Below are positions 16,456-33,018 of a stretch of 33,349 nucleotides of DNA, piece after piece. Below the pieces are notes generated by a model, which was given only the letters and a program-made list of their open reading frames with translations, was not told the DNA's origin and did no database searches. The DNA comes from Holophagae bacterium. Its GTDB lineage: Bacteria; Acidobacteriota; Thermoanaerobaculia; Thermoanaerobaculales; Thermoanaerobaculaceae. The stretch spans positions 1 to 33,349 of the forward strand of contig JAAYVZ010000030.1 of assembly GCA_012516935.1 (NCBI GenBank), given 5' to 3'. Within the stretch, counting starts at the first letter, position 1; every line of letters begins with the position of its first letter. Position numbers and translations under genes: made by a program.

Positions 16456-17196
16456 TCAGCCCACATTCCAGGGTGCGTTCGATCGAGCGAGTGCCTGCAC
16501 GGTGCTGCGGGCCAGGCGGAGGGTGCGAAACGACTCGGCGGCGGCCAGGCCTTTCGCAGCACCGACCCGGGCGGCCATGCGAGTGAACGCCTCGCGGGTG
16601 TAGGCGGGGTCGAACTGCGAGGCGTGCTCGCAGATGAGGGCGATCTTCTCGTCCAGGACGTCCGAGATGTCGACCCACTTGTCCGGCTCGTCGCTGGGAC
16701 CGAGCCAGATCTCACTCACGACATGGGGCTCGAGCCCCTCGGCGGCGAGCTCGGGAAAGATGCTGTGCTTCTTCACCGCCGGGTAGATCGCGTCGAGGAC
16801 CGCCTGCCCGGCGGCACGGTGGTCGGGGTGGTTGATATACAGGCCGTGCCTGAACCACATGGTCGGGTCGGAGGAGACGACGATGTCGGGGCGCACCTGG
16901 CGCATGACGCGGACGAGGTCTCGTCGCAGCTCCAGCGTCGGCTGTAGCAGGCCGTCCTCGTAGCCAAGGCGAATGACCTCGGCGCCCAGCTGCGCTGCGG
17001 CCCGCGCCTGCTCCTTGGCCCGGCGGGCGACGACCTGCTCGGGCGTGTCGAGCGGGTCGTTGGTACCCTTATCGCCGTCGGTGATCAGCCCGATGACGAT
17101 GCGGTGTCCCTCCTTCGCCCACTTCAGCAAAGTCCCGCCGGCCATCGTCTCGGCGTCGTCCGGGTGCGCGTTCAGGGTCAGGATCGTCATCGCCAT
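16456..17196 (-). CDS. PIG-L/LmbE family deacetylase
   Basis: The 246-residue protein is a zinc-dependent N-deacetylase of the PIG-L/LmbE fold. The metal-binding AHPDDAE motif is at residues 10-16 and the third ligand is in INHPDHRAAG (His about 126). TDGDKGTND and RPDIVVSSDP are family blocks. Relatives remove acetyl groups from GlcNAc conjugates, as in bacillithiol (BshB), mycothiol (MshB) and GPI precursors. No bshA or bshC homologue is in the window, so the substrate is unknown. The longer MAMTIL start at 17196 was kept; an ATG six nucleotides in (17190) is also possible, and no ribosome-binding site clearly decides between them. It is divergent from pspA across 235 bp. Confidence 0.88.
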   Translation of the reverse strand: MAMTILTLNAHPDDAETMAGGTLLKWAKEGHRIVIGLITDGDKGTNDPLDTPEQVVARRAKEQARAAAQLGAEVIRLGYEDGLLQPTLELRRDLVRVMRQVRPDIVVSSDPTMWFRHGLYINHPDHRAAGQAVLDAIYPAVKKHSIFPELAAEGLEPHVVSEIWLGPSDEPDKWVDISDVLDEKIALICEHASQFDPAYTREAFTRMAARVGAAKGLAAAESFRTLRLARSTVQALARSNAPWNVG

Positions 17197-17431: not shown

Positions 17432-18193
17432 ATGTGGGCACGAATCCGCAACCTCTTCAAGGGCTTCCTGAGCCTGTTCATCTCCGGTCTAGAGCGAGCC
17501 AACCCCAAGGCCTTGATCGAGGCCGAAAAGGAGAACCTGCGCAAGCAGATCGCCCGCTTCAACGATAGCCTGGCGACTCATGCCGGCTTCTGCGAGCGGC
17601 TCATCCGGCAGATCAAGGGCCTCGAAACACAGGAGCGCGAACTGTCCGCCAAAGCAGCGGCCCACCTGAAAGCCGGCAACCGGGCAGTGGCAGGGCAGTA
17701 CGCACTGCAGCTTCGGACCGTGAAGGAGCAGCTCGACGAGAACCGCCGTCAGCTCGAGGCGGCGGAGGCCACGTACAAGAAGCTGGTGCAGTCGCGTGAC
17801 GTCGCGGTGCGAGATGCGCAGGCCAAGATCGAGACGCTCAAGAGGATGCTCAGCGAGACCGAGATGCTCGAGGCGCAGGCCGAGCTTCAGGAGATGGCAC
17901 AGGGCATGATCTCTTCGATCGGTGGGTCGGGCGACACCATCAACCGCATCGAGGAAGCGCTGTCCGAACGCCGGGACAAGGCCGCCGGTCGCGCCCGGGT
18001 GGCGGCATCGTCGATCGACACCTCCAAGGTCGAGGTGTTGGCGGCCGAGCAGGAGGCGCTCGCCGACCAGGCGCTCTCGGAGTTCGCTGCCTCGTATGGG
18101 CTCGAGATGCCGGGGTTGGTGGCGGTGGAGGAGTCGGTGACAACGACGGCACCGCCCAAGGATATGGGGCCGGCTGCCAAGGAAGGGCAGTAG
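17432..18193 (+). CDS. pspA: PspA/IM30 (ESCRT-III-like) family protein
   Basis: The 253-residue protein opens with an amphipathic membrane-binding helix (MWARIRNLFKGFLSLFISGL) followed by ANPKALIEAEKENLRKQIAR. A long coiled-coil hairpin runs to about residue 190 (AAEATYKKLVQSRDVAVRDA, with TEMLEAQAELQEMAQGM). A less structured tail continues DTINRIEEALSERRDKAAGR. PspA/Vipp1 proteins assemble into ESCRT-III-like rods or rings that bind and repair stressed inner membrane. No pspB, pspC or pspF partner is nearby. Instead the next genes encode an ABC system, with only 77 nt between them. AAAGGA lies 8 nt before the ATG. The C-terminal 45 residues are an acidic, Ala/Val/Thr-rich extension beyond the core. 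Confidence 0.88.
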   Translation: MWARIRNLFKGFLSLFISGLERANPKALIEAEKENLRKQIARFNDSLATHAGFCERLIRQIKGLETQERELSAKAAAHLKAGNRAVAGQYALQLRTVKEQLDENRRQLEAAEATYKKLVQSRDVAVRDAQAKIETLKRMLSETEMLEAQAELQEMAQGMISSIGGSGDTINRIEEALSERRDKAAGRARVAASSIDTSKVEVLAAEQEALADQALSEFAASYGLEMPGLVAVEESVTTTAPPKDMGPAAKEGQ

Positions 18194-18231
18194 CCGGGAT
18201 TCGGTTGTCGAGTCCTGTGCGGTAGGCGGGA

Positions 18232-18249
18232 GGCCGGTGAGGGCCGGCC
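18232..18249 (+). promoter_or_regulatory. Intercistronic hairpin between pspA and the substrate-binding gene
   Basis: GGCCGG, loop TGAGGG, CCGGCC forms a 6-bp perfect GC stem 21 nt before the next ATG and just ahead of its AAGGAGGAG site. It could be an attenuator or a processing/stability element that sets different levels of PspA and ABC proteins. Confidence 0.35.
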
Positions 18250-18270
18250 CAGGAGTCTGAAGGAGGAGCC

Positions 18271-20007
18271 ATGGAGCAGCAGAAGGTCGGGATGACCCCA
18301 CTCGGGAAGATCGTCGTCTTTCTCTTCATCATCGGCTGCGTCGGCGGGGCGCTGTACTACTTCCGCGACTTCATCGCGCCTTCAGGCAGCGGCGACAAAC
18401 CGAAGCAAGTGGACATCGGGAAGTTCCAGGCGCAGCAGGGCAGGGTCGAGGCGCCTGACACCAAGGGCATCACCACGGTCAACGAGTACACCTACGTCCC
18501 GGGGGAAAAGCTGCCGCCGGTGAAAGGCGTCTCAGCGTACAAGTGGAGCAGCGAGAAGATCGTGCAGTTCCCGATCAACGTCTGGATCGGCTGGCTGCCG
18601 ATCGTGGCCGCCAACCACGGGTTCGCGCCCAACACCGAGTCGGTGTTTTTCAAGGAGTACGGCTTCAAGGTGAACCTCAAGCTCATCGATGATCCGGTCG
18701 CGGCGCGCGACGCTTTCGCGGCTGGGGACAGCCACATTCTGTGGGGCACCCTCGACATGATGGCGCTGTTCGCCTCCGACCTCATGAAAGACTCCCGCAC
18801 CGCGCCGCGCGTGTTCCAGCAGATCGACTTCTCGGCTGGCGGCGACGGCATCGTCGTGCGCGGCAACATTCACTCGGTCAAGGACCTCAAGGGCAAGGTC
18901 ATCGTCTATGCCCAGAACAGCCCATCGCAGTACTTCATCAACAACCTGCTGCTTTCGGCGGGCATCCAGCCCTCCGAGGTCACGCACAAGTTCACCTCGG
19001 ATGCCTTCGGGGCGGCGACCGCGTTCGTCGCCGACAAGCGCCTCGACGCCTGTGTCTCGTGGGCACCGGACATCTACAACATCCCGGAGAAGGTGAAGGG
19101 CACCCGCATCCTCACGACCACGGCCGATGCCAACAAGCTCATCGCCGACGTGTGGGCGGCGCGCGCCGACTTCGCCAAGGATCACCCGGAGATCATCAAG
19201 GGGCTCGTGGCGGGGATCTTCAAGGGCATGGACATGCTCAAGGACCCGGCCCTCAAGCAGAAGGCGTTCGCGTGGATGGCCGAGGGATACCAGATGCAAC
19301 CCACCGAGGTGGCCGGGATGCAAGACGATGCGCATCCCACCAACTTCCCGGAGAACAAGGACTTCTTCCTCAATCAGTCGAGCCCGACCAACTTCGAGCG
19401 GACATGGAAGAACATCACCTTCGTGTACCGGGAGCTGGGGCTGATCGGCACCCCGGTACGTTTCGACGAGGTGATGGACTTCTCGGTCATCAAGCAGCTC
19501 GACGCCGAGGGAGTGTTCCGCCACCAGCGCGACGAGTCGCGTACCTCGTTCGCCCCGACCTCGTTCTCCCGCGTCTCAGCCGAGGCGCCGATCCTTACCC
19601 AAACCATCCGCATCAACTTCTATCCCAACTCGGCCAACATCTTCGAACCACAGCACGACGAGCTCGGCAACCCGATGCCCAACACGCTGTACGACCCGAA
19701 CGTCACTGCCACGCTCGAGAAGGTGGCACGCCTGGCGGGCCAGTACGAGCGGGCGGTGATCGCCGTCGTCGGCCACGCGGACTCGTCGATGAAGGGCAAG
19801 GGTGCTCGCACCGAGGACGTCAAGCAGCTCTCGCAAGACCGCGCAGCAGCCGTGAAGCAGGCGCTGGTCAAGAAGTTCAACTTCGACCCGAACAAGTTCC
19901 TGGTCGAGGGTAAGGGGTGGGACGTGCCGGCCGATCCGGACGATCCGCTGAATCAGGCGCTCAACCGGCGCGTCGAGATCTCGGTGTATCCGCCGGAGGC
20001 CAGGTAG
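18271..20007 (+). CDS. Membrane-anchored ABC substrate-binding protein fused to an OmpA peptidoglycan-binding domain
   Basis: The 578-residue protein starts with one transmembrane anchor (LGKIVVFLFIIGCVGGALYY, about residues 11-30) without a lipobox or obvious cleavage site. Residues about 85-415 are an NMT1/SsuA/NrtA-like periplasmic binding domain (INVWIGWLPIVAANHGFAP, DAFAAGDSHILWGTLDMMAL, VKDLKGKVIVYAQNSPSQYF, ADKRLDACVSWAPDI). From about 440 an OmpA_C domain follows: INFYPNSANIF, VVGHADSS, SQDRAAAVKQALV and LNRRVEISVYP. These contain the Asp/Arg positions that bind diaminopimelate. Such a fusion would tie the substrate receptor to both inner membrane and cell wall. The strong AAGGAGGAG site precedes the ATG. 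Permease and ATPase genes follow. The ligand is unknown; relatives bind sulfonates, nitrate or thiamine precursors. Confidence 0.85.
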   Translation: MEQQKVGMTPLGKIVVFLFIIGCVGGALYYFRDFIAPSGSGDKPKQVDIGKFQAQQGRVEAPDTKGITTVNEYTYVPGEKLPPVKGVSAYKWSSEKIVQFPINVWIGWLPIVAANHGFAPNTESVFFKEYGFKVNLKLIDDPVAARDAFAAGDSHILWGTLDMMALFASDLMKDSRTAPRVFQQIDFSAGGDGIVVRGNIHSVKDLKGKVIVYAQNSPSQYFINNLLLSAGIQPSEVTHKFTSDAFGAATAFVADKRLDACVSWAPDIYNIPEKVKGTRILTTTADANKLIADVWAARADFAKDHPEIIKGLVAGIFKGMDMLKDPALKQKAFAWMAEGYQMQPTEVAGMQDDAHPTNFPENKDFFLNQSSPTNFERTWKNITFVYRELGLIGTPVRFDEVMDFSVIKQLDAEGVFRHQRDESRTSFAPTSFSRVSAEAPILTQTIRINFYPNSANIFEPQHDELGNPMPNTLYDPNVTATLEKVARLAGQYERAVIAVVGHADSSMKGKGARTEDVKQLSQDRAAAVKQALVKKFNFDPNKFLVEGKGWDVPADPDDPLNQALNRRVEISVYPPEAR

Positions 20008-20084
20008 GACCACCGGCCGCCCATCCGGTCGCTCGTGGTTCGCGGTTGGCTGTAGAGCCGGCAATGAGGGGGAGATAGACGGCG

Positions 20085-20996
20085 ATGGTCGTGGAGACGG
20101 TGAAGCAGGAGGTGGCGCCGACCGGGCAGGAGGCGGGGCCGGAGAAGCCGGTGGTGCCGTCGGCGAAGACCGATTTCCGGCCGGTCCGACCCGGGGGTGT
20201 GCTGCGTATCAGGGAGTCGATTCCGGGCTGGCTGGCGTGGGTGCTGGGGGTGGTGCCGATCCTGGTGCTGTTGCTCGTGTGGTTCGTCGTCACGGCGGGG
20301 AGCGAGGCGGAGAGCCGGATCATCTCGCCGACCATCCTGCCGAGCCCGGTGGAGGTTCTCGAGTCGTTCCCATCGCTGTGGTTCGATCGGGCGCTGGTGC
20401 GCAACCTGGCGGTCTCGTTCGGCCGCGTGCTGCTGGGGTTCGGGCTCGCCGTGGCGACCGTTTTCCCGCTCGGCGTGCTCATGGGTGGGTTCACCAAGAT
20501 CAAGGCGATGTTCAGCCCGCTGGCGGTGTTCGGGGCGTATATCCCGATCCCGACCCTGGTGCCGCTCACGCTCAGCGTCTTCGGCACCGCCGAGCTGCAG
20601 AAGGTGGTCTTCCTTGCGCTGGCGTTCGGGATCTACCTACTGCCGCTCATCGTCCAGGCCGTGGATACGGTCGACGACACCTACCTCAAGACCGCCTACA
20701 CCCTCGGGGCAGGGCGCTGGCAGGCTGTGCAGAAGGTGCTGCTGGCCATTGCCTGGCCGGATATTTTTCAGGCGCTCCGGATGGGGTTCGGGGTGGGGTG
20801 GAGCTACATCCTGTTGGTCGAGATGGTGGACATGTCGAAGGGCATCGGTGGCCTGATCATGATCTCCCAGCGCCGTGGGCCCCGGGAGCACATCTATCTG
20901 GTGCTGGTGTTCATCGTCGCGATCGCCTTTCTCACCGACCGGCTGTGGGGGTGGGTCGGCAAGCAGCTCTTCCCGTATCGGGAGACCAAGCGATGA
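20085..20996 (+). CDS. ABC transporter permease (SsuC/TauC-like)
   Basis: The 303-residue protein has an N-terminal cytoplasmic stretch of about 50 residues rich in Pro, Glu and Val. A first helix follows (LAWVLGVVPILVLLLVWFVV), then a binding-protein-dependent transport domain with about five more helices. The EAA-type loop that contacts the ATPase is DTYLKTAYTLGAGRWQAVQK; the segment VPLTLSVFGTAELQKVVFLA is typical of nitrate/sulfonate/taurine permeases. GGGGGAGA lies upstream of the ATG at 20085. The stop overlaps the ATPase start by 4 nt. It should form a homodimeric channel working with the OmpA-fused binding protein. The long hydrophilic N-terminus is not usual for SsuC and may contact another component such as PspA; that last point is speculation. 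Confidence 0.9.
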   Translation: MVVETVKQEVAPTGQEAGPEKPVVPSAKTDFRPVRPGGVLRIRESIPGWLAWVLGVVPILVLLLVWFVVTAGSEAESRIISPTILPSPVEVLESFPSLWFDRALVRNLAVSFGRVLLGFGLAVATVFPLGVLMGGFTKIKAMFSPLAVFGAYIPIPTLVPLTLSVFGTAELQKVVFLALAFGIYLLPLIVQAVDTVDDTYLKTAYTLGAGRWQAVQKVLLAIAWPDIFQALRMGFGVGWSYILLVEMVDMSKGIGGLIMISQRRGPREHIYLVLVFIVAIAFLTDRLWGWVGKQLFPYRETKR

Positions 20997-21820
20997 GCGC
21001 CCGCGTCCCCATCGTCGAGTTCCGCAACGTCTCCAAGACCTTCAACCCCGGTACACCGCAAGAGTTCACGGCCCTCAAGGACGTCACGTTCTGCATCGAG
21101 GACAAGCCCGACTACGGCGAGTTCATCGCTCTCGTCGGCCCGTCCGGGTGCGGCAAGTCGACGGTCATGAACCTCATCCACGGGTTCTCGGACGTCTTCC
21201 CACCGACGACCGGCGAGGTGCTGGTCAAAGGCGCGGTGCCGACGGGGCCGGGCCGCGACCGAGGCATGATCTTTCAGCGCTACAGCTCGTTCCCGCACCG
21301 CACGACGCTGCACAACGTCACCTTCGGCCTCGAGATCAACCAGCGTGAGCTCGATCTGTCGCGGTCGGCGATGGAGGATTTGGCGGCGCAGTGGCTGGCG
21401 AAAGTCGGGCTCAAGGGCCACGAGCGCAAGTATCCCCACCAGCTTTCGGGCGGGCAGCAGCAGCGGCTGGCGATCGCTCGGACGCTCGTCCTCAAGCCGC
21501 CGATCATCCTCATGGACGAGCCGTTCTCTGCCCTCGACGAGCCTACCCGTTACGAGATGCAACAGCTCATCATGGAGCTGTGGCACGACATCGAGACGAC
21601 CGTGTTCCTCGTCACTCACTCGCTGTCGGAGGCCGTGTTCCTGGGCGATCGGGTGTGGGTGTTCACCCCCGCACCGGGGCGCATCGGCAAGGAGTTCACC
21701 GACATCATCCCGCACACCCGCGGAGCGGACCCGATCAAGGTCCAGGAGTCGTCGCAGTTCAAGCAGGCCGTAGCCGAGGTCACGGAGGTCTTCCGCGCGC
21801 TCGAGTCGTGTAAGGCGTAA
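20993..21820 (+). CDS. ABC transporter ATP-binding protein (SsuB/TauB-like)
   Basis: The 275-residue ATPase has all nucleotide-binding motifs: Walker A GPSGCGKST (about residues 49-57), the Q-loop in MIFQRYSSFPH, the signature LSGGQQQR (about 151-158), Walker B IILMDEPFSALDEPTR and the switch His in VTHSLSEAVFLGDR. The C-terminal residues after HTRGADPIK match importers of the nitrate/sulfonate/taurine class. PGRIGKEFTDIIPHTR resembles the usual region after the switch loop. The ATG at 20993 overlaps the permease stop (ATGA). The next gene begins 2 nt after the stop. The ATPase is intact, so the complex should be an active machine rather than a regulator-only remnant. Confidence 0.93.
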   Translation: MSARVPIVEFRNVSKTFNPGTPQEFTALKDVTFCIEDKPDYGEFIALVGPSGCGKSTVMNLIHGFSDVFPPTTGEVLVKGAVPTGPGRDRGMIFQRYSSFPHRTTLHNVTFGLEINQRELDLSRSAMEDLAAQWLAKVGLKGHERKYPHQLSGGQQQRLAIARTLVLKPPIILMDEPFSALDEPTRYEMQQLIMELWHDIETTVFLVTHSLSEAVFLGDRVWVFTPAPGRIGKEFTDIIPHTRGADPIKVQESSQFKQAVAEVTEVFRALESCKA

Positions 21821-21822
21821 GC

Positions 21823-22740
21823 ATGTCTGAGGAGAACCTGGGTTTCTGGGACTACGTGAAGGCGGCATTCTGGCACAAGCCGCGCGTCGGGTTTCTGGGT
21901 CCCTTGCCGGTCAACGTCATGGCGCTGTTTGCCTGCATGGTGGCGAGCATTGCCACCCAAAACGCCGGGTTTCTGTTCCTTGGCGGCGCCGCGGAGATCG
22001 GCTACCTCACATTCCTGTCCTCGAACCCCTCGTTCCAGAAGCTCGTGCAGGGACTCCGCCTGCTCGCCAAGCAGGAAGGGTGGCAGCAGAAGGTACAGGC
22101 ATCTCTCGTACGCCTGCGCCCCGACTCGATGGAGCGCTACCGACGCCTGTACGACCAGTGTCGTCTCATTCTCGGCATCTCCGACCGGGTCGCCCCCGAC
22201 GACTTGTTCTCGATCCGCGACCTGCGTGCCGGAGGGCTCAACCAGCTCCTGTGGCTGTTCCTGCGCCTGCTGACCTCGTACGAGCTCATCGTCGCCAACC
22301 TGAGCTCGGTCAAACGGACGGAGCTCGAGTCCGAGGTCGAGCGGCTGAAGGAGCGCCTCGCCGTGGCCGAGCCCGAAAGTGCCCTCGCGCGCTCGTTGCA
22401 GGGCATCCTCGACATCCAGAGCAAACGGCTGGAAAACCTCAGCCGAGCCCAGTCGAGCCTCGAGGTCATCGACGCCGAGCTCGAGCGCATCGAGCAGCAG
22501 GTCCAGCTCATCCGCGAGGAGGCGGCGGTGACCACGAGCCCCGATGCCCTCTCGAGCCGCCTCGACGCCGTCACCGCCACGCTCAGCGAGACCTCCCGCT
22601 GGATGGACCAGCACGCCGAGTTCTTCGGCAGCATCATCGGCGAGGATGACGTCATGGGTGGGGCGGTGCTGACCGGGCTCCCCGAGCCGCCCTCGACACC
22701 CAAGCCGCCGCCGCCCCCGCGCCAGAAGCAGCGGCAGTAG
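21823..22740 (+). CDS. Membrane/coiled-coil protein of unknown family, last gene of the PspA-ABC module
   Basis: The 305-residue protein is not a family I recognise. A short cytoplasmic start (MSEENLGFWDYVKAAFWHKP) leads to two close hydrophobic segments (VNVMALFACMVASIA and AGFLFLGGAAEIGYLTFLSS, about residues 30-66). A helical region with a further hydrophobic stretch (LNQLLWLFLRLLTSYELIV) follows. A strong heptad coiled coil runs from about 155 to 235 (LESEVERLKERLAVAE, EVIDAELERIEQQVQLIREE). The C-terminus is Pro-rich and basic (PPSTPKPPPPPRQKQRQ). It starts 2 nt after the ATPase stop, so it must be co-translated. The coiled coil could pair with PspA, itself a coiled-coil protein; this is inference from topology and context only. 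Confidence 0.75.
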   Translation: MSEENLGFWDYVKAAFWHKPRVGFLGPLPVNVMALFACMVASIATQNAGFLFLGGAAEIGYLTFLSSNPSFQKLVQGLRLLAKQEGWQQKVQASLVRLRPDSMERYRRLYDQCRLILGISDRVAPDDLFSIRDLRAGGLNQLLWLFLRLLTSYELIVANLSSVKRTELESEVERLKERLAVAEPESALARSLQGILDIQSKRLENLSRAQSSLEVIDAELERIEQQVQLIREEAAVTTSPDALSSRLDAVTATLSETSRWMDQHAEFFGSIIGEDDVMGGAVLTGLPEPPSTPKPPPPPRQKQRQ

Positions 22741-22822
22741 GCCGAGCTCGCCACCGGCGCCGACGGTTCGCACGGCCTCGGCTCGCTCCACGGACCGCCT
22801 TCGCAGGACGTGGTGCAGCTCG

Positions 22823-22845
22823 AGCTCACGTGGTACCTGTGAGCT
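22823..22845. terminator. Hairpin between convergent genes, candidate bidirectional terminator
   Basis: AGCTCAC (22823-22829) and GTGAGCT (22839-22845) form a 7-bp perfect stem around a 9-nt loop, overlapping the stop codon of the minus-strand gene. The 103-bp gap lies between the end of the ABC module and the YD/IPTL gene. There is no U-tract. Confidence 0.4.
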
Positions 22846-24322
22846 ACCCGCGGCGGCGCAGGACCGCCCCGCCGACGCCCAGCAGGGCGGCGATCAGGAG
22901 TGCCAGGCTGCTGGCATCCAACGCCGGGATCGGCTCCACCCGAGCTCCCTCGCCGTGCACCGAGACCGTGGCGGGGTTGCCGGCCGGGTCGTTCGATGGG
23001 ATGACGAAGGTGTCGTCGAACCTCCCCTCGGTGGTCGGCAAGAAGCGAACGGTGATCGTGCAGGTGCCGCCCGCCGGCTGCGGCTGCAGGGTCCGGCCCG
23101 AGCAGGTGTCGGCCGTGATGCTGAACGGAGCAGCCAGACCGTCACCCTGCCCGACCGTGCCGATCACCAGGTCGGCGTCGCCGGTGTTACCGACCGTCAC
23201 GGTGCGGGAAGACGGCGAGGCGAGCGGCGTGCTGCCGAAGTCGAGGCTGCTCGTGTCGAGGCGGATGACAGGGGCGGCCAGCACCGAGGGCCCGCCGACG
23301 TCGATGATGAGGCCATCGGCGGTGCGCACATCGTCGCCGCGCAAGGTGTCGACGAAGTGCAGGAGGACGCGTGTGTCGGTGGCGGTCTGAACGACCTCGG
23401 CCCCGGTCGAGCCGCTGCGGTTGAAGTCGTACCAGTGTGGCGCCTCGTTGTCGGGTGTCGGGCCGTACTTGAAGTAGTCCGCGATCGAAGGATCCTTGGG
23501 GAGATGGATCGTCACGACGACGCCAGCGGCAGGCGCGCCCGTGACAGTGAAGGCGAAGAAGCCGTACGGGAACTTGGCCGCCGGGGCGTCGTCGGGGTGG
23601 GGGTTCGGTACCGCCTGGACGCCCACCAGCGACTGCCCGCTCGGCACCTCGAGGGTGACGTAGCCGGCGCCGGTGGCCGTTGAGAGCGATGCCACGTTCG
23701 CCTGCTGGTAGTCGGGGACCCCGTCGCCGTTGCCGTCGTACGACGGATCGTTCCCGCCCGGTCCCATCTCGCCGACATCGGGGACGCCATCGGTGTCGGT
23801 GGAGCCGGAGGCGGCGCCGAAGTACGCGGTGATCCGCCGGTCGGCATCGAGCGTGAAGGTGAATGGGTTGTCGGCGGATAGCATGTCGCCGGCCCAGCCG
23901 AGCAGCTTGAGATCGCCGGTCGCCGGGGACGCGGTCAGCGTCAGCGGCTGGGTGCCGGCGAACGCGTGGACGCACGTCCCGGGGCAGGCGATGCCCGGAC
24001 CGGTGACGCTGCCGCCGCTCGCGGGCGAGACCGCCACGCGCAGTGTGTGGTCCGGGCTCTCCGAAGCCGCCGAGAGTAGGTTGCCGGCCGCGTCGTAGGT
24101 GTAGACGACCGCCCGGCCACCGCCGAGGTCGGCCCGGACCAGCCTTCCGGCGGCGTCGTAGCTGTAGCTCACGGTGTCGGCTCCGGCCGTCGCTGCGAGG
24201 AGGAGGGCGGCCACCGCCAGGCGTGTGAGCGCCGATGACGTTCGGGGCGAGGAACCGGTCGGTGCGACCGTCGGGCGGCCGTCGGCGTGGGCATGCTGGG
24301 AGCTCTGAGACAGGGAGCGCAT
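22844..24322 (-). CDS. Secreted multidomain protein with two YD repeats, TSP3-like, choice-of-anchor domains and IPTL-CTERM-like tail
   Basis: The 492-residue protein has an extended signal peptide (hydrophobic core LTRLAVAALLLAATAGA, residues 32-48). Two YD/RHS repeats follow (YSYDAAGRLVRA, YTYDAAGNLLSA; 54-86). Next come a bacterial repeat unit (GSVTGPGIACPGTCVHAF, GWAGD; about 95-165) and calcium-binding TSP3-like motifs (DTDGVPDVGE, DGNGDGVPDYQQ; 176-207). A choice-of-anchor U-like region spans about 208-330 and a choice-of-anchor D-like Ig fold (LDFGSTPLAS, VTVGNTGDADLVIG) about 355-458. The tail VEPIPALDASSLALL plus hydrophobic helix and RRRG resembles IPTL-CTERM exosortase-type sorting signals, with IPAL for IPTL. 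TAGGAGGA lies 6 nt before the ATG. It begins 11 nt after the RHS stop, so both share a transcript. Surface anchoring is inferred; no exosortase is in the window. Confidence 0.8.
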   Translation of the reverse strand: MRSLSQSSQHAHADGRPTVAPTGSSPRTSSALTRLAVAALLLAATAGADTVSYSYDAAGRLVRADLGGGRAVVYTYDAAGNLLSAASESPDHTLRVAVSPASGGSVTGPGIACPGTCVHAFAGTQPLTLTASPATGDLKLLGWAGDMLSADNPFTFTLDADRRITAYFGAASGSTDTDGVPDVGEMGPGGNDPSYDGNGDGVPDYQQANVASLSTATGAGYVTLEVPSGQSLVGVQAVPNPHPDDAPAAKFPYGFFAFTVTGAPAAGVVVTIHLPKDPSIADYFKYGPTPDNEAPHWYDFNRSGSTGAEVVQTATDTRVLLHFVDTLRGDDVRTADGLIIDVGGPSVLAAPVIRLDTSSLDFGSTPLASPSSRTVTVGNTGDADLVIGTVGQGDGLAAPFSITADTCSGRTLQPQPAGGTCTITVRFLPTTEGRFDDTFVIPSNDPAGNPATVSVHGEGARVEPIPALDASSLALLIAALLGVGGAVLRRRG

Positions 24323-24333
24323 CGGTCGTCCTC

Positions 24334-27300
24334 CTACCAGTTGGCCTGTTTGTTGAGGAGCCCGTCGAGGTACTCGGTGTGCTGTCGAATATGGTCGAAC
24401 CAGGCCTTGCCGGTCGTTCGCGAGGGCTCCACGGTCTGGTAGGAGCGCTCGAAAAACGGCTCCATCATCCACTGCACCCCCTGGTCGACCGGCGCATACG
24501 TCCCCGTGGCTGGATCGAAGTGCAAGCGTGCCTGGCCGATCCCACGCCCGCCGAACCACCCCGCCGCACCGGAGATCACGACGGGCCCCGCGATGTCGCC
24601 CACGGCGAGGGTGGCCACGTCGGTGCCGAGCATTTTGACGCCGTAGGAAACGGTGGCCCGCAAGATGACCTTCTCGTAGGCAATCCGCGCCGCGATACTG
24701 CCCATCCAGTTGCGCCAGTTGCCGAGGGTGCGCTGGAACAGGCCTGGGCCGGCCGGCTGACCTTGCTGTGCGACCATCGCGGGAGGGCTCGGGGCGCTGT
24801 CACGGGGGCGAAAGACGACCGGTCCGGAAGAAGGGAAATTGCGGGGGCGAAAGACGCCGCGCGGCTTGGGCGAGGGGGGACTCTCGATCGTCGGTTCCGG
24901 CGGAAGCGGCGGTCCCTTGATGATCAGGTGATCGTGCTCGATTTGATCGGCGATTTCCTGGATCGGCTTGCTATGGACGTAGGTTCTGATGTCCTTCTCC
25001 CGGAGGTACACCTCGCCGAACTTGTAGACATGGTCCTCGTCCGGGACGAGGTAGCCGCAATCACGAAACCCCAGCTCCGCGCCGCGCTCGAACCAGAGCT
25101 GGAGCGCCTCCTCGATTGACGTCGCCACGAACCCCGTGTCGATCGGGTCCAGCCCCTGAGGATCGACGCGGTTGACGGGGTCGCCGCCGGCGTACGCGTA
25201 CAGGTTGAGGCCGGCGGCCAGACCCAGCGGATCCTCGGTAACGAAACGTCGGGCGTCCGGGTCGTAGTAGCGAGCCTGCATGTGGTACAGGCCGTTCTCG
25301 TCAGCGAGCACGCCGCGCTTGCCGACGAACCGGAACGGGCTCGCCAGCGCTCCGGCCGCTGCGGCCACCTTGCCGTACGGGTCGTAGGCGTAGGCCTGCA
25401 GGACGGTCCCCGAGCCGTCGGTGATCGCCACGACGCTGCCGCGCTCATCGCCGTGGTAGACCGAGATCGTACCCGCCGTGTCGAGCGAGTAGAGGAGCAG
25501 ACCGGCAAAGACGTTGTAGCTCTGGATGGCGCCCGAGCCGTCCAGCGTGCAGTAGACCGTCCCACCCTCGCGGACGTAGCCGGTGGTCGAGCCGTTGTGC
25601 GTCTTGACGACGCGGTTGCCGGCGCCGTCGTAGGCGTACGTGGTGGTATTGACCCCGTCCGACACCGACACCAGCCGGTTGAGGGCGTCGTAGGCGTACG
25701 TCGTGGTCGCGCCCTGGCCGGTCTTCGAGGTCAGGTTACCCCTGAGGTCGAACGCATAGGAGGTGACCACGCCGTCGACGGTGGCCGTGAGCACCCGGTT
25801 GGCGGCGTCGTACGCGAAGGTCGCCAGGGAGTCCACCGACTCGAGCGCTGCCGGCTCGTTGCGCTCGACCGAGGCGATGCGGCCCACCGCGTCGCGGGTG
25901 TAGGTGTAGCTAGCGATCAGCGTGCCGGTCGATGTCTGGCTGCGGCGTGTGGCGAGGCGGCCGGCGGCGTCGTAGGTGGAGAGCTCCTTGGTGCCGTTGG
26001 GGAGCGTCACCTGGACGACGCGGCTGGCGTTGTCGTACTGGAAGACCGTCTGGTTCCCCAGCCAGTCGGTGGCGGTCGCGAGCCGCCCGGCCGCGTCGTG
26101 GGCGTAGGTGACCACGTGGCCGTCGGGATAGGTGAGCGTGCGCAGACGGCCGGCCGCAGTGTACGCGTACGCCATGGTCCTGCCTGCCGGGTCGGTGCGT
26201 CCAAGCCGCCGCCCGCACAAGTCGTAGGTCATCGTCGTGGTCCCGGAGCCGTCGGTCACCGACGTCACGTTTCCCGCCGCGTCGTACCCGTAGCTGACGG
26301 TCTGGCCCGGCATCGTCACCGTCGTCAGGCGGCTGGCGTTGTCGTAGGCGTACGTGATGACGGTGCCGTCGCGCTGCGTCCACCGCTGCAGCCGCCCCTG
26401 CCCGTCGTAGGCGAACGACTCCGTCTTGCCGTTGGGGTCGAGCCTGGAGGTCAGTCGGCCGGCCGCGTCGTACGCCAGCATCCAGAAGTGCCCGAGGGGG
26501 TCGGAGAGGTACAGCGGCCGCCCGCTGGGGTCGTTGATGAAGGAGATCTCCCCGCCGTCGGGCAGTGTGGTCCCGATCAGTCGGTTGGCCTTGGAGTAGG
26601 CGAACTTTTGTGTGCCGCCGAGCGGGTCGGTGATGGCAACCACTCGCCCCGCGGCATCGTAGGTCGTCGCGTGCTGGTTGCCGAGCGGATCGGTGCTGCG
26701 CACCGGCCGTCCCTCGGCATCGTGCTCGCTGGTCCAGGTGGCGCCCAGCTCGTTCGTGACCGAGGACAGGTTGCCGTTGGCGTCGTGGCCGAAAAGCACG
26801 CGGTGGCCGAGCGCGTCGGTCACGCTCGTGAGGCGGTTGGCGCGGTCGTACTGACGTGTGACGGTGATGCCGTCGGCGTCCGTCACCGAGACCACGTTGC
26901 CGTCCACGTCGTAGGTCGTTGTCGTGATGCCGCCGAGGGGGTCGGTGACCTTGACGGGCCGCCCCGCCCAGTCGTACTCGAATCTCGTCGTGGCGCCGGT
27001 GGGAACGAACGTCTGCGAGGCCAGGTTACCGTTGTCGTCGTAGGTGAACGTCGTGACGTTGCCCAGGGGGTCGGTCCGGGTGAGCGGGTGACCGGCCTCG
27101 TCGTACGTCCACTGCATCGTCGCACCGCCTGTCGGCAGCGTGACCTGGGTGACGCGTCCAGCGCTGTCGTGCGCCAGGGTCACGCGGACGCCGGTCGGGT
27201 CGGTGACCGTTTGCGGCAAGCCGCTGGCGTCGTACGTGCTCTTCCACTCGCCGCCGCCCAGGTCCTTGACCACGGTGGGAAGGCCGCTGGCGTCCACCGT

Positions 27301-29397
27301 GATCGAGGCGGTACGGCCCTCGGCGTTGGTGACCGAGGTCAGGTTGCCCTTGACGTCGTAGCCGAACGTGTCGGTGGTGGTCCCCAGCGGTCCGACGATG
27401 GCGGTCGGCCGGTTCAGGGTGTCGAAGGAGATCTGCATCTGGGCGCCGGTGCGGTCCTGCACGATGAGCGGGTTGCCGGCCGCGTCGTGGAACGAGCCCG
27501 AGGCCTTCCCGTTCTTGTCGACCGCGCCGGTGAGCTGGCCGCGGCCGTCGGCGCCGAACGACGCCTCGTGCCCTTCGCCGTCGACGACCCGCACGAGGTT
27601 GTAGGCCCGGTCGTAGACGTGGGTGACGGCGTGCCCGGACGGCGGCGTGATCGTCGTCGTCGTGCCCGCGGCGTCGACCGCGTAGGCGTAGGAGGTCACC
27701 CCTCCGGCCCCGTCGGTCTGCTGGACGACGCGCCCTGTGCCGTCGTACGCGTTGGTGATGACGGTGACGCCCTTGGCGTCGACGTGCGTGACAAGCCGGT
27801 GCACGCCGTCGTAGGTGAAGCGCCAGAGCCGGCCGCGGGGGTCGGTGATTCCGCTGAGGTTACCGGCGGCATCGTACTGGAACGCGACGGTGCTGCCGGG
27901 CCGGATCGGCGACGCAATCGCGGTGATCCGCCCCGCGACGTCGTGGGTGAACGTGACCTGCCTGCCCGCCGTGTCCGTGATGTGGTCGATCTGCCCGGGG
28001 ACGGTGGTCGAGTAGGTGAGCACGATCCGGTTGCCGTTGAGGTCCCCGATCGCCAGCAGCCGGCCGCCGGCGTCGAACTCGTACGTGTTCTGGTTGTGTA
28101 GCGTCGCTACCCATCGCGAGGGCTCGGGCCGCGTGAGCTTGACCGGCGTGTTCGAGCCCACTGGCGTGAACGCGCCGGTACCGTCGTCGTGGAAGCGGTC
28201 CACGTGGCCGTCGCTCCACTTGATCGACACCTGGGTCGCTGGGGGCACCGGGGGCGTCAGGACGGTGTTGAACGCGTGGGTCCAGCCCGGACCGAGCGGC
28301 CCGTTGTAGCCGGTGTCGAGCGAGTTGTAGGTCACCTCGAAGCCGAACGGCACCCCCTTGCCGGGCAGGTCGAACAGCCGCTTCGAGTAGATGTAGTTGC
28401 CGAGCCCGGCGTGGACCGGCTCGCCGACGAGCTGCAGCGCGAGTGCCCGGCCGAGCTGGCTGTCGGCGTCGACAGGTGGGTTGTCGACGTGGGTGAACTG
28501 CACGGTGACCCGATCCTCGGCGCTCGAGATCTTGGCCATCACCTCGTCCGGGCCGGTGACGTTCCCGGGCGAGGAGAGGGTGGCGCGGGCGATTCCGCTC
28601 TCGTCCGTGACCGCTTTGGCCGGCTGGAGGATGCCGAACAGGCTCGAGAAGCTCACCGTCTCGCGGGGCATCGCGACACCAGAGTTCTTCTCGTAGACGC
28701 GGGCGGAGAGCGCGACAGGGGTGCCGTCGGCGGGAGCGGACGTGGGTTCCGCGGTGAGGGCCACCCACTCGCCACCGCCGATCTTGTAGTAGTCCTCGGC
28801 GTCGTTGCCCCAGCCGATGCCCCACCACCCCGACAGGTGCATGGTCGTGACCTTGCGCCAGCGATCCTCGTTTCCGGCGCAGGTAGCCTTGACCTTGAGC
28901 GTGAAGACCGCGCCGGGTCCCCACGCCCCGGCCGAGAGGTGCGCTGGGCAGGTCGAGGTCTCGCTCCACTGGCCGCCTCCCCAGGAGCGGCAGAAGCAGT
29001 GGTCGTTGACCGTCGACCCGGGAGGCGGCGTCCACACCGAGGTCCAGTGCACCGCCGTCCCGCTCACGGAGACGTTGTGGAGCGAGTCGGCCTTGGGCTC
29101 GTAGTCCACCAGCTCGAAGCAGCCGGGGACGAAGACCGTGACGCTGCTCGTGCCGACCAGCGCCCACTGCGAGTAGGCGCACCCCAGGCCTGCCGGAGGA
29201 CCGCCGACGATGGTCGCCGTGATCGTGGCGATGTCGCCCTGGTTGACGACCTTGGGGCTGATCCTACCGGTCGCCCACAGGCCCCAACCCATCGCGTCCT
29301 CGCAGGCGGGCGGCGGGTCGAGAGCAAGAACGGGGATCGTCACCCCGAGCCACATTGCGGTTGCCAGCCCCAGCCAGGTCATCGGTTGTCGTCGCAC
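24334..29397 (-). CDS. Secreted RHS/YD-repeat protein with variable C-terminal domain
   Basis: The 1687-residue protein starts at GTG 29397, chosen because GGAGG lies 6 nt upstream and it yields a tidy signal peptide (RRQPMTWLGLATAMWLG, to VLA); ATGs at 29436 and 29382 are alternatives. A Cys-rich region of about 200 residues is followed by a Big-1-like Ig domain (LTAEPTSAPADGTPVALSA) and a DUF6531-like entry block (GNYIYSKRLFDLPGKGVPFG, about residue 330). Several dozen YD repeats then lead to the RHS core end (GLYHMQARYYDPDARRFVTE) and hallmark PVNRVDPQGL (about 1406-1415). The last roughly 270 residues are non-repetitive: a Pro-rich linker, a helical/hydrophobic stretch (ATVSYGVKMLGTDVATLAVG) and a charged end. 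RHS shells enclose C-terminal toxins in polymorphic toxin systems. This C-terminus matches no toxin fold I know and no cognate immunity gene is obvious. Confidence 0.9.
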   Translation of the reverse strand: MRRQPMTWLGLATAMWLGVTIPVLALDPPPACEDAMGWGLWATGRISPKVVNQGDIATITATIVGGPPAGLGCAYSQWALVGTSSVTVFVPGCFELVDYEPKADSLHNVSVSGTAVHWTSVWTPPPGSTVNDHCFCRSWGGGQWSETSTCPAHLSAGAWGPGAVFTLKVKATCAGNEDRWRKVTTMHLSGWWGIGWGNDAEDYYKIGGGEWVALTAEPTSAPADGTPVALSARVYEKNSGVAMPRETVSFSSLFGILQPAKAVTDESGIARATLSSPGNVTGPDEVMAKISSAEDRVTVQFTHVDNPPVDADSQLGRALALQLVGEPVHAGLGNYIYSKRLFDLPGKGVPFGFEVTYNSLDTGYNGPLGPGWTHAFNTVLTPPVPPATQVSIKWSDGHVDRFHDDGTGAFTPVGSNTPVKLTRPEPSRWVATLHNQNTYEFDAGGRLLAIGDLNGNRIVLTYSTTVPGQIDHITDTAGRQVTFTHDVAGRITAIASPIRPGSTVAFQYDAAGNLSGITDPRGRLWRFTYDGVHRLVTHVDAKGVTVITNAYDGTGRVVQQTDGAGGVTSYAYAVDAAGTTTTITPPSGHAVTHVYDRAYNLVRVVDGEGHEASFGADGRGQLTGAVDKNGKASGSFHDAAGNPLIVQDRTGAQMQISFDTLNRPTAIVGPLGTTTDTFGYDVKGNLTSVTNAEGRTASITVDASGLPTVVKDLGGGEWKSTYDASGLPQTVTDPTGVRVTLAHDSAGRVTQVTLPTGGATMQWTYDEAGHPLTRTDPLGNVTTFTYDDNGNLASQTFVPTGATTRFEYDWAGRPVKVTDPLGGITTTTYDVDGNVVSVTDADGITVTRQYDRANRLTSVTDALGHRVLFGHDANGNLSSVTNELGATWTSEHDAEGRPVRSTDPLGNQHATTYDAAGRVVAITDPLGGTQKFAYSKANRLIGTTLPDGGEISFINDPSGRPLYLSDPLGHFWMLAYDAAGRLTSRLDPNGKTESFAYDGQGRLQRWTQRDGTVITYAYDNASRLTTVTMPGQTVSYGYDAAGNVTSVTDGSGTTTMTYDLCGRRLGRTDPAGRTMAYAYTAAGRLRTLTYPDGHVVTYAHDAAGRLATATDWLGNQTVFQYDNASRVVQVTLPNGTKELSTYDAAGRLATRRSQTSTGTLIASYTYTRDAVGRIASVERNEPAALESVDSLATFAYDAANRVLTATVDGVVTSYAFDLRGNLTSKTGQGATTTYAYDALNRLVSVSDGVNTTTYAYDGAGNRVVKTHNGSTTGYVREGGTVYCTLDGSGAIQSYNVFAGLLLYSLDTAGTISVYHGDERGSVVAITDGSGTVLQAYAYDPYGKVAAAAGALASPFRFVGKRGVLADENGLYHMQARYYDPDARRFVTEDPLGLAAGLNLYAYAGGDPVNRVDPQGLDPIDTGFVATSIEEALQLWFERGAELGFRDCGYLVPDEDHVYKFGEVYLREKDIRTYVHSKPIQEIADQIEHDHLIIKGPPLPPEPTIESPPSPKPRGVFRPRNFPSSGPVVFRPRDSAPSPPAMVAQQGQPAGPGLFQRTLGNWRNWMGSIAARIAYEKVILRATVSYGVKMLGTDVATLAVGDIAGPVVISGAAGWFGGRGIGQARLHFDPATGTYAPVDQGVQWMMEPFFERSYQTVEPSRTTGKAWFDHIRQHTEYLDGLLNKQANW
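25151..28085 (-). repeat. Tandem YD-repeat coding tract within the RHS gene
   Basis: This roughly 2.9-kb tract encodes tandem units of about 20 residues, each with a YDxxGR/N-L core. At DNA level it shows the recurring plus-strand string gtcgtaggcgtacg (for example near 25629, 25687 and 26343). Units are diverged at protein level, so this is protein-repeat periodicity rather than simple-sequence DNA. Such tracts are prone to internal recombination. Confidence 0.8.
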
Positions 29398-29662
29398 TGT
29401 CGCCTCCACCTCGTGATTGCTCCTCGCGCATTTCAATCGGGATGCGGCCGGCGCCTGGCGCGGCGACCTCCGCTCCCGGTGTGCGGGCCGCTGTGAGCGT
29501 CTGCAGGAACGGCAGCAACTCGGCGAGCGAAGAAAACCCCCGGCGCTGCCGGCTCAGCGGGTCCTCGACGCTGCACCGCCACGGCTCGGCGTCGCCGCCG
29601 TCGCGCCACAGGCGGAGGATCAGCGTCGCGCCGTCTCGCCTCTTCGGGGTCTCGCTCGCCAC
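29264..29662 (-). CDS. Small hypothetical protein overlapping the RHS gene start
   Basis: A GTG at 29662 with GAGGAG 8 nt upstream opens a 132-codon frame. Its first half (GATLILRLWRDGGDAEPWRC, then SVEDPLSRQRRGFSSLAELL and PFLQTL) looks like a small-protein family I recall. Members pair an R-L-W strand, a W-R/x-V strand, a GxxRxF turn and an LAELxxF helix, and occur beside large ATPase or repeat-protein genes. The second half is low-complexity and overlaps the RHS start by 134 nt in another frame, so the functional part may be only the first 60 or so residues. It is the first gene of the minus-strand RHS unit and faces the SARP-like regulator across about 135 bp. Function is unknown; a regulator or chaperone for the RHS protein is speculation. 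Confidence 0.5.
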   Translation of the reverse strand: MASETPKRRDGATLILRLWRDGGDAEPWRCSVEDPLSRQRRGFSSLAELLPFLQTLTAARTPGAEVAAPGAGRIPIEMREEQSRGGGDSATTTDDLAGAGNRNVARGDDPRSCSRPAARLRGRDGLGPVGDR

Positions 29663-29797
29663 CGTTCCAGCTCCTCGCGGCGAGTCTCGGGGCCGAGCGT
29701 TGAGACACCGTTGATGGCCGGTGGGGTGACGTACCATGTCGGGCGCGGGAGGTGGGCTACGGCGCGCAGAATGGGGACCGAGCGAGGAGCTGGCCAG

Positions 29798-32700
29798 GTG
29801 GAAGCGCCGGGCATTCGGGTCACGCTGCTGGGTGGGTTCGGGCTGGCGAGCCCCGCCGGCTCTCACCGTCTGGAGTCAGCCAAGACAGAAGTCCTGCTCG
29901 CCTATCTCGTGCTCGCGCCGGGCAGCCACGCGCGCGCCAAGCTGCAAGGGTTGCTCTGGCCCGACCTGACGGAGGAGCGGGCCGCGCGCAATCTGCGGCA
30001 CGCCCTCTGGGACATTCGCCGCACCTTCGCGGCCGCCGGTGCCGGGATTCTCGTCGCCGACCGCTCCCGCGTGGCTATCGCGCCGCACGCCGACGTGGTC
30101 GTCGACGCACGGGAGCTGATCACGGCCTACGAGGCGCTGCGCGGCGGGCGCCAGCCGGCGCCGCGCCTGGCGATCGACGCGCTCCTGCAGGGCGAGCTGC
30201 TCGACGGTGTCTTTCTCGGCGACGCCCCCGAGCTCGAGCAGTGGCTGCTGGCCGAGCGCGAGCGTCTGCGCGCCGTCGCCTACGACGTGCTGCGCGCCCT
30301 CGTCGCCCTCCACCGGCAGCAGGGCGACCTGACGACCGCCCTGGCACAAGCCCGCGCGCTCATCGAGCTGGACCCCTGGCGCGAGGAGTCGCACCGAACG
30401 GTCATGGAGCTACTGACCCAGGCCGGCGAGCCGGCCGCCGCGCTGGCGCAGTTCGAGGAGTGCCGCCGCGTCCTCGCCGAGCAGCTCCAGACCACCCCTA
30501 CGGCCGACACCGTGCGCCTGGCCGAGCGCATCCGCGCCTTCTCGGGGAGCGTCACCGGCGCGGCCGACCCGCCGTTGATCCGCCACAACCTCCCGGCGCA
30601 GGCCACGCCGTTCGTGGGGCGCGAGAGCGAGATCGCGGCCGTCGAGCGGCTGCTCCTCGCACCCGAGTGCCGCCTTGTCAGCTTGCTGGGTCCCGGCGGC
30701 ATCGGCAAGTCACGACTGGCGTTGCAGGTCGCGCAGCGGCAGGTGCTTGGCGGCTGCACGGGCAGGGCTTTCGCCGACGGCGTCTGGTTCGTGCCGCCCC
30801 AGGAGGGGGGCGAGGCCGGCGGTCTGGCGGCGGCGGTGGCGCGCGCGCTCGCGCTCGGGGAGTCGCCCGGGCTCGGGGCGCTGGCGCTGGAGGCTCGTCT
30901 CGAGGACTACCTGCGCCACCGGCGTGTGCTCCTGATCCTCGACGGGCTCGAGCACCTCCTACCCGATGCTGGCGCCCTCGCTGCGTTGATCGCGGTGGCG
31001 CCCCTCGCCAAGGTGCTCGTGACCACCCGCGAGCGCCTCGGCCTGCCGGGTGAGTGGGTCGTCGAGGTCGGCGGTCTGGCGCCACTGGCGGCCGAGGACG
31101 ACCAGAGCCCGGCCGTGCAGCTCTTCGTGCAGAGCGCACGGCGGGCGCGGTTCGGGCTCGAGCTCGCAGTCGAGGAGCGGGCAGCCGTAGCCGGGCTGTG
31201 CGCCGCCGTCGAGGGGTCGCCGCTCGCCATCGAGCTCGCCGGGGGGTGGGCCGGGAGCCTGACGGTGCGGGAGATCGCCGCCGAGGTCGCGCGCCACCCG
31301 GGCTTTCTCGGCAGCCGGGAGGGAGGCCTGCGGGCAATTTTCGACTCCTCGTGGTCGCGGCTCGGCCCCGAGGAGCGGCGGGCGCTCGCGGCGCTGTCGG
31401 TCTTCGTCGGAGGGTGCACCCGTGAGGCCGCCGAGGCCGTGGCAGGCGCCTCGATCGACAGGCTCCGCCGGCTCGTGGACACCTCGTTCGTGCGCCACGA
31501 GCCGTCCGGACGCTACACCGTCCATGAGGTGCTGCGCCGTTTCGCTCAGGACGAGCTCGCGACCGACCCGGCAGCGCTCGAGCGGGCGCGCGCCGCGCAC
31601 GCGACGTACCTCGCGGAGCGCCTCGGATCGCTCTCGTCCGGGGCCGTCGGGATCTCCCAGCGCGAGATACTCGACGAGATCGGCCTCGAGCTCGACAACC
31701 TGCAGGTCGCTTGGCGATGGGCGGTCGCCGCCGCGCGAGCCGACCTCGTGGAGGCGTTCCTGGGGAGCCTGCAGACGTACGCCGAAGCACGCGGCTGGCT
31801 GCGCGCCGCCGAGGCACTCCTCGGTGAGGCGCTTGTCCGGTTCGGCGCGGACGGCGCTGGGCTGGCCGTGGCGCTGCTAACCGCGCGAGGGAGCCTGCGC
31901 AACCGCATGGGCGCTTACGCCGCGGCGGTCGAGGACCTCGATCGGGCGCTCGCCCTTGTGGAAGGCGCCCAGCCGCGTGCCGCGGCGCTCGCGCACCTGG
32001 GCGCAACCGCCTACCTCCAGGGCCGCCACGGCGAGGCCCGCGAGCGGCTCGAGCGCGCCATGGAAGACGCCGGCGTGCCCGGGCTGCGCGCGATGTGCTC
32101 GAGCCTCCTCGGGCGGGTTGCCCTCGAGCAAGGCCGTCACGACGACGCCGAGGCCGCGTTCGAGACCGCCTTGGCGCTGTCTCGCCAAGCCGGCGACAGC
32201 CACGGCGCCGGTTGGGCGACGAACCAGCTCGGGCTCATGGCGTACTTCCGCGGTGCCCTCGACGCCGCGGATCGCCTGTTCGAGGAGGCCCTCGATCTCG
32301 CGCGAACCGCTGGGGACCTGGCGCTCGTCAAGGAGGCAGCGATCGGCCTCGGCTACGTCCGCGAGGACCGCGGCAACTTCGGCGCGGCTCGTGGGTACTA
32401 CCGGGAAGCGCTCGCCGTGAGCCGCGAGAGCGGCGACCGGCGCGGCGAGGCGCACACCCTGATGGTCATCGGCGAGACCCACCGGCGCTCGGGCGAGCTC
32501 GAAGCGGCCCGGAGCTTCTACCGCGACGCCCTCGAGATCGCCGGCGAGATCGGCTCGGCGTACCTCGTCGGCCTGCTCACCGGCAACCTCGCGTACCTCG
32601 AGGCCGCTGCCGGCCGTCTGGACGAGGCGGCCGCCCACGTGCGCGAGGTCCTGCGGGCGTACCTCGAGGGCGGTACCGTCGCTACCGTCCTGCCGGCCCT

Positions 32701-32998
32701 CGTCAGCGCCGCCGAGGTGCTGCACCGTCGGGGAGCGAGCGCACGCGCCGTCGAGCTGCTCGGTCTCGTCTTCGCCCATCCCGCCAACCGCCAGGACCAC
32801 TCGATCGAGGCCGAGCGCGTCCTCGTCCTGGTCGGCGCGGCCGTGCCGCCGCGCACGGTCAAGCGCCACCTCGCCGCCGGCGCCGCCCTCGACCTCGACG
32901 AGGTCGTGCTCTCACTTGCCGAGGAGGGTTCGCTCGAGGCAGCGCCGGACGCGGCCCGACCGGCGAGAAACGGGCGAGAAAGAGCGCCGAGCGGGTAG
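29798..32998 (+). CDS. SARP-like transcriptional regulator: winged helix, BTAD, NTPase and TPR domains
   Basis: The protein is 1066 residues from the GTG at 29798, which has AGGAG 8 nt upstream; an ATG at 29771 would add nine residues. An OmpR-type winged helix (RVTLLGGFGLASPAGS, LWPDLTEERAARNLRHALWD) is at about 5-90. A BTAD domain is at about 95-245 (LDPWREESHRTVMELLTQAG). An NB-ARC/STAND-like NTPase follows with Walker A LLGPGGIGKSRLAL (about 295-308), Walker B LLILDGLEHLL, sensor VTTRERL and SPLAIELAGGW. TPR repeats fill about 600-1010 (LGLMAYFRGALDAADRLFEE, IGETHRRSGELEAARSFYRD). These regulators activate nearby operons when a ligand or nucleotide state is sensed through the NTPase/TPR part. 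There is no C-terminal LuxR helix-turn-helix. The divergent position makes the RHS unit its most likely target. Confidence 0.88.
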   Translation: MEAPGIRVTLLGGFGLASPAGSHRLESAKTEVLLAYLVLAPGSHARAKLQGLLWPDLTEERAARNLRHALWDIRRTFAAAGAGILVADRSRVAIAPHADVVVDARELITAYEALRGGRQPAPRLAIDALLQGELLDGVFLGDAPELEQWLLAERERLRAVAYDVLRALVALHRQQGDLTTALAQARALIELDPWREESHRTVMELLTQAGEPAAALAQFEECRRVLAEQLQTTPTADTVRLAERIRAFSGSVTGAADPPLIRHNLPAQATPFVGRESEIAAVERLLLAPECRLVSLLGPGGIGKSRLALQVAQRQVLGGCTGRAFADGVWFVPPQEGGEAGGLAAAVARALALGESPGLGALALEARLEDYLRHRRVLLILDGLEHLLPDAGALAALIAVAPLAKVLVTTRERLGLPGEWVVEVGGLAPLAAEDDQSPAVQLFVQSARRARFGLELAVEERAAVAGLCAAVEGSPLAIELAGGWAGSLTVREIAAEVARHPGFLGSREGGLRAIFDSSWSRLGPEERRALAALSVFVGGCTREAAEAVAGASIDRLRRLVDTSFVRHEPSGRYTVHEVLRRFAQDELATDPAALERARAAHATYLAERLGSLSSGAVGISQREILDEIGLELDNLQVAWRWAVAAARADLVEAFLGSLQTYAEARGWLRAAEALLGEALVRFGADGAGLAVALLTARGSLRNRMGAYAAAVEDLDRALALVEGAQPRAAALAHLGATAYLQGRHGEARERLERAMEDAGVPGLRAMCSSLLGRVALEQGRHDDAEAAFETALALSRQAGDSHGAGWATNQLGLMAYFRGALDAADRLFEEALDLARTAGDLALVKEAAIGLGYVREDRGNFGAARGYYREALAVSRESGDRRGEAHTLMVIGETHRRSGELEAARSFYRDALEIAGEIGSAYLVGLLTGNLAYLEAAAGRLDEAAAHVREVLRAYLEGGTVATVLPALVSAAEVLHRRGASARAVELLGLVFAHPANRQDHSIEAERVLVLVGAAVPPRTVKRHLAAGAALDLDEVVLSLAEEGSLEAAPDAARPARNGRERAPSG

Positions 32999-32999
32999 A

Positions 33000-33018
33000 C
33001 CCCGGGCCGTTGCCGGGG
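33000..33018 (+). terminator. Hairpin directly after the SARP-like gene
   Basis: CCCCGG, loop GCCGTTG, CCGGGG forms a 6-bp GC stem one nucleotide past the stop codon. There is no U-tract; it may terminate or protect the transcript. Confidence 0.38.

Follow-up and report, generated by a model that had tools for sequence, protein, structure and literature searches.

What does a gene for PspA do in one run with the genes of a complete ABC importer? The question is raised by a locus on a contig belonging to an acidobacterial MAG of 3.7 Mb (genome G000), analysed here as a stretch of 33,349 nucleotides (the window). The locus had been picked out from its sequence as a possibly under-described envelope module with an ATP-driven transporter at its centre.

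Gene content of the locus

Five ORFs, all on the forward strand, lie within positions 17432-22740 and encode PspA, a receptor-OmpA fusion, a permease, an ABC ATPase and a protein here called CC. Intergenic spacings along the run are 77, 77, -4 and +2 nt; genes, order, strand and spacing are exactly those of the original prediction. A PIG-L family deacetylase gene (16456-17196, reverse strand; PF02585, E = 1e-27) lies upstream of pspA and is divergent from it. A search of the window for RNA features, including tRNAs, found none.

The first gene (17432-18193, forward strand) encodes a 253-residue PspA/Vipp1 homologue of the ESCRT-III superfamily. Its match to PF04012 (E = 6e-8, 33.0 bits) is marginally under the Pfam cut-off of 33.9, while its profile aligns over the full length (positions 1-248) with solved Vipp1/PspA (E = 3e-12), placing it in the family by sequence similarity.

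The 578-residue product of the second gene (18271-20007, forward strand) combines an N-terminal membrane anchor, an NMT1-type solute-binding domain (PF09084, residues 126-323) and an OmpA domain (PF00691, residues 475-561). It is the binding protein with inner-membrane anchor and cell-wall domain that had been proposed, both domains standing behind one hydrophobic segment (residues 11-29). The best solved relatives are TauA for the receptor part and Omp38/OmpA for the C-terminal part; D504 and R524, which align with peptidoglycan-binding Omp38, are invariant, in keeping with a peptidoglycan-binding OmpA domain.

The permease (303 residues; 20085-20996, forward strand; PF00528, E = 9e-15) is of the type I importer class. 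The long cytoplasmic N-terminus claimed for it proved to be an extension of only about 50 residues, absent from relatives of 265 to 268 residues. The ATPase (275 residues; 20993-21820, forward strand; PF00005, E = 1e-27) is indeed intact in Walker A, signature and Walker B. NMT1-type receptor, BPD_transp_1 permease and ABC_tran ATPase together make up the domain set of a type I importer.

CC (305 residues; 21823-22740, forward strand) was described from the outset as a membrane/coiled-coil protein of no known family, and it gave no convincing match to Pfam, NCBIfam or PDB sequences and no match in plasmids; a search of named genomes returned two loci only. An AlphaFold model made from three sequences, of modest confidence (pLDDT 69), is all-helical; it has a pair of hydrophobic helices around residues 30-67, predicted to form a membrane hairpin, and a 50-residue helix at 187-236. 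Searching with the modelled fold gave BAR, F-BAR and designed-bundle proteins (best Foldseek E = 0.23; Z up to 9), scores within the range common for helical bundles; ESCRT-III proteins were absent from the matches, which is also non-diagnostic. Profile comparison did not support CC as a divergent PspA/Snf7 (hhalign probability 1.6%). An anti-phage system was likewise set aside, the only matches being to IetA, through a generic AAA, and, weakly, to a ZorA coiled coil.

Conservation in the Acidobacteriota

The five genes recur in the same order and on the same strand in 12 further genomes, seven close (L024-L029, L031) and five in a second clade (L035, L038-L041), so chance does not account for the arrangement. 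Some families have the set with its gene order shuffled (for example, L093 and L105). In the second clade, an extra gene for a 211-residue coiled-coil protein of no clear family precedes pspA where the locus extends that far (L039:4829-5461 and homologues).

One set of 396 Acidobacteriota genomes was searched with profiles for CC, receptor-OmpA, AAA+ and PspA, and the positions were combined; the best three to six candidates per genome were scored, and absences are lower bounds. CC was found in 87 genomes, as was PspA at the survey threshold, and the two occurred together in 85, against 19.1 expected. PspA lay within 10 kb of CC at 75 of 95 CC loci and directly upstream in sense at 69. An AAA+ gene was present at 45 of the 95 CC loci (downstream in sense at 43) and receptor-OmpA at 31. 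The co-occurrence on which the original prediction depended is borne out by the 25 loci that carry PspA, CC and receptor-OmpA together: a module joining PspA, an ABC importer, an inner-membrane-anchored receptor with an OmpA domain and a coiled-coil membrane protein is conserved.

The idea of the ABC transporter as the central machine was not supported. Receptor-OmpA is absent from 50 of the 75 PspA-CC loci, and the importer is therefore accessory to a core of PspA and CC, often with the AAA+ ATPase, whose gene lies off the window. PspA, CC and often AAA+ are linked genes to which a subset of loci adds the anchored receptor-OmpA importer, and the present locus is the ABC-bearing form of this acidobacterial PspA system.

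Some loci vary the theme further. In family f34 the absence of AAA+ beside PspA-CC was read directly at two loci (L088 and L089); the third gene there encodes a protein of 312 to 319 residues, ATP-grasp-like by eye and with no Pfam match (L089:4423-5361, L088:4703-5662). In G418 (L091:6095-10690) PspA-CC stands beside a solute-binding protein and a receptor-VWA fusion that replaces receptor-OmpA, and no AAA+ was found in the genome. In G038 (L030:7893-12208) the order permease, ATPase, CC, AAA+ is kept, but neither receptor-OmpA nor PspA could be recognised in the part of the locus that was read.

Transport or sensing

The receptor, permease and ATPase domains are canonical, and receptor residues that include W158, D162, G190-G193, W264 and D267 are invariant among homologues with only about 30% identity, as a functional ligand site would lead one to expect. 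Both features would suit an ordinary type I importer of a taurine-, sulfonate- or nitrate-like solute, with PspA and CC co-expressed for membrane protection and taking no direct part. TauABC, SsuABC and NrtABCD indeed share the NMT1-type receptor, BPD permease and ABC ATPase. However, the receptor here is membrane-anchored and fused to OmpA, both conserved among its homologues, it scores far below all substrate-specific equivalog cut-offs of NCBIfam, and it belongs to a fixed partnership with PspA, CC and AAA+: among 39 genomes with receptor-OmpA, 38 have CC and 36 have PspA. An ordinary importer is thus an unlikely description of the locus.

The tether between inner membrane and peptidoglycan that the anchor and the OmpA domain, with its conserved Asp and Arg, would provide also suits a ligand- or strain-gated sensor. 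Such a device would transport little; ligand at the wall-tethered receptor would switch the ABC complex and thereby PspA assembly, and it is in keeping with this that the PspA-CC core can dispense with the ABC genes. Against it, the transporter motifs are fully importer-like and the conserved gene set has no transcription regulator, and we consider pure sensing improbable. An importer that is an optional attachment to a PspA-CC core remains the preferred reading.

Receptor-OmpA proteins also occur in plasmid cassettes of Vibrio (L168:7456-18341 and L169:6380-16502), each with two receptor-OmpA proteins, an ABC ATPase, a permease, a urea-type receptor, a VWA protein and TelA (PF05816). The cassettes thus resemble the present locus in joining receptor-OmpA, ATPase and permease, but differ in having TelA and the VWA protein and, by profile search, no PspA, CC or AAA+.

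The displaced AAA+ gene

In relatives, a gene for an AAA+ ATPase of about 600 residues follows CC, usually directly (CC-to-AAA+ distance about 1.3 kb in L026 and about 1.8 kb in L031). No AAA+ gene is adjacent to CC in the window. G000 has an intact copy on a separate contig of 3.6 kb (C193), 70% identical to the protein of G005. In G001, a genome of the same genus, CC and the AAA+ gene share one contig, the latter some 9 kb further downstream. The last 190 bases of the window (33160-33349) match G001 3.2 kb before this gene, and the match of C193 to G001 takes in the AAA+ gene and extends past it. The simplest reading is an operon split within the genus, in G000 by an insertion of about 14 kb and in G001 by other content, with the gap between the two G000 contigs inferred. 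The window would then be without the AAA+ gene because this insertion, the left part of which occupies 22741-33349, parts it from CC.

The putative inserted region encodes a 571-residue protein (22844-24559, reverse strand), an RHS-like protein, judged by eye from its YD repeats (24334-29436, reverse strand), and a BTAD/NB-ARC/TPR regulator (29417-32998, forward strand). At the equivalent place G001 has genes for a C39 peptidase, a metallo-beta-lactamase fold, ChW repeats and an ECF sigma factor.

Operons of this type are not new, since Ravi et al. 2024 (PMC11237479, section 18) already listed extended operons in which PspA is joined by a Snf7 homolog that bears a TM segment, an AAA+ whose N-terminal copy is inactive, ABC ATPase, permease and PBPB-OmpA (for example, OGG56892.1). 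'Under-described' is a fair term for the system, but not if taken to mean a new operon type. PspA, ABC ATPase, permease and receptor-OmpA share one operon in the window as in that class, and the AAA+ of the relatives likewise has no Walker A in its N-terminal half. The AAA+ gene stands beside CC in most relatives read, whereas that of G000 is outside the operon on C193; the relatives belong to the published class and the window is its displaced-AAA+ member. CC, which has a hydrophobic helix pair but showed no resemblance to PspA in the profile comparison above, could not be matched to the 'Snf7 homolog with TM' of that class.

The AAA+ ATPase

The C-terminal half of the AAA+ protein, including the G000 copy (L044), has Walker A (GxxGTGKT), a KWVG pore loop, Walker B (DEAD or DEGD) and an arginine finger (KR-x-GR); the first 300 or so residues have no Walker A. 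Proteins of the relatives match PF00004 at E = 1e-23 to 1e-27, which makes this a classical AAA domain.

ESCRT-III/Vps4 systems (CdvB/CdvC) similarly place a gene of the ESCRT-III superfamily beside a classical AAA gene with a KWxG-type pore loop, and in both cases presence of the motor gene goes with a motif at the C-terminus of the polymer protein. They differ in that the AAA+ here has a degenerate N-terminal half and CDC48/VCP/AFG2 as nearest solved relatives of its profile. No MIT domain was found in five family proteins scanned against Pfam, and for this reason the AAA+ is not filed as Vps4; the likeness is a functional analogy, in motor motifs and setting. A 2024 survey (PMC11188069) found systems of ESCRT-III with Vps4 confined to archaea and eukaryotes. 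A structure model of the AAA+ made from two sequences only (pLDDT 40) was discarded as unusable, and a literature search for a likeness to Ycf46 found nothing.

A related AAA+ is encoded on plasmid pSC2 of Paenibacillus polymyxa (L170:5695-7317; 30% identity over 72%, profile E = 1e-96), where it sits among hypothetical genes with no PspA found beside it.

A tail motif in PspA that tracks the AAA+ gene

PspA ends in a variable linker rich in proline and alanine, with the motif [KR]-x-[LMI]-G-P near the end; in the window this is K243-D-M-G-P247 (18158-18172, forward strand). In one PspA clade the tail terminates exactly in KTM. Neither form, K-x-M-G-P or terminal KTM, matches a known MIM, the motif type of ESCRT-III/Vps4 systems.

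Presence of the motif follows presence of the AAA+ gene across genomes. It was found in 52 of 57 PspAs from genomes with AAA+ (47 strict, 5 variants of KTLG/KTIG type) and in 2 of 30 from genomes without, both of the latter from MAGs of families in which AAA+ is usual. Sampling across the phylogeny is uneven, with 26 of the 28 motif-negative tails from genomes without AAA+ coming from one family. Shuffled tails gave the motif at 0.4%. A Fisher test relating the motif to an AAA+ gene within 10 kb (p = 7e-7) is descriptive only, as the genomes are related. On a tree of the PspA core, AAA+ was lost on four branches. Two of these are tips formed by one MAG each; the remaining two, those of the f34 clade and the G418/G281 pair, coincide with motif loss, of which there are four cases in all; the rough chance of two such co-losses is 0.0025, from only two independent events. 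G373 provides an internal control: its PspA beside AAA+ ends in NKTM, whereas the copy without AAA+ has GKQIGAG.

Two lineages (G338/G407 and G088/G440) kept AAA+ without the motif. In G088/G440, Walker A of the retained AAA+ reads GSAKT where others have GTGKT (L036:3-1694, L103:6097-8496). The motif is present at PspA-CC-AAA+ loci that have no ABC genes (L098 and L104), and thus follows the AAA+ gene and not the transporter.

The pattern suggests, from sequence comparison, that the motif is a candidate docking tag for a Vps4-like motor. Alternatively, the partner of the tail may be CC or a general chaperone, and common descent may explain why the motif correlates with AAA+. The small number of independent co-losses leaves room for this, f34 PspAs without AAA+ retain a different short motif (KQI-x-x-G), and chaperones act on the C-terminal tail of VIPP1 in chloroplasts (Li et al. 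2025, as cited in PMC13051332). A partner other than AAA+ is nevertheless doubtful: CC is present in motif-less genomes (f34 and G418), the motif occurs at the AAA+ loci that lack ABC genes, and in G373 it is confined to the PspA copy beside AAA+.

Proposed mechanism

Docking of AAA+ on the PspA tail, the preferred reading, can be set in a scheme of PspA polymer, CC as membrane partner, AAA+ as tail-gripping motor and an optional wall-tethered importer, to which as a whole we give a probability of about 0.5. By analogy with ESCRT-III proteins, PspA would polymerise on the inner face of the membrane, where CC, fixed by its putative membrane hairpin, may recruit or organise it. The AAA+, through its active C-terminal domain and KWVG pore loop, would grip the tail motif and extract or recycle PspA subunits, the role that Vps4 has for ESCRT-III. 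Where present, receptor-OmpA and the ABC transporter would form a wall-tethered complex that binds and imports a solute, and could in this way make PspA activity depend on a ligand or on the condition of the envelope. In the genus of the window, the AAA+ gene would have been parted from the operon by insertion, yet is intact.

More tentatively, we suggest a bacterial Vps4-like cycle, in which the operon's AAA+ would recognise the C-terminal K-x-[LMI]-G-P or terminal KTM of PspA and remodel or disassemble the polymer at a site set by CC, with the optional wall-tethered importer as an input. The scheme is limited by the presence of CC without AAA+ in many genomes, and CC itself could read the tail.

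Significance

Ravi et al. 2024 (PMC11237479), in the parts dealing with these operons, proposed a tie between membrane remodelling and solute transport, with a reading in terms of solute and peptidoglycan similar to that of the original prediction. The main text of that paper makes no mention of the tail motif, which looks to be a new element of an otherwise published system. Whether a Vps4-like motor, be it PspF or an equivalent ATPase, acts on PspA/Vipp1 is described as unclear by Liu et al. 2021 (PMC8281802). Should the tail motif not be a docking site, the operon would still be a known PspA system that is experimentally untouched. Ravi et al. pointed to PspA-linked AAA+ genes, and the tail motif gives that idea a concrete handle of five residues on PspA.
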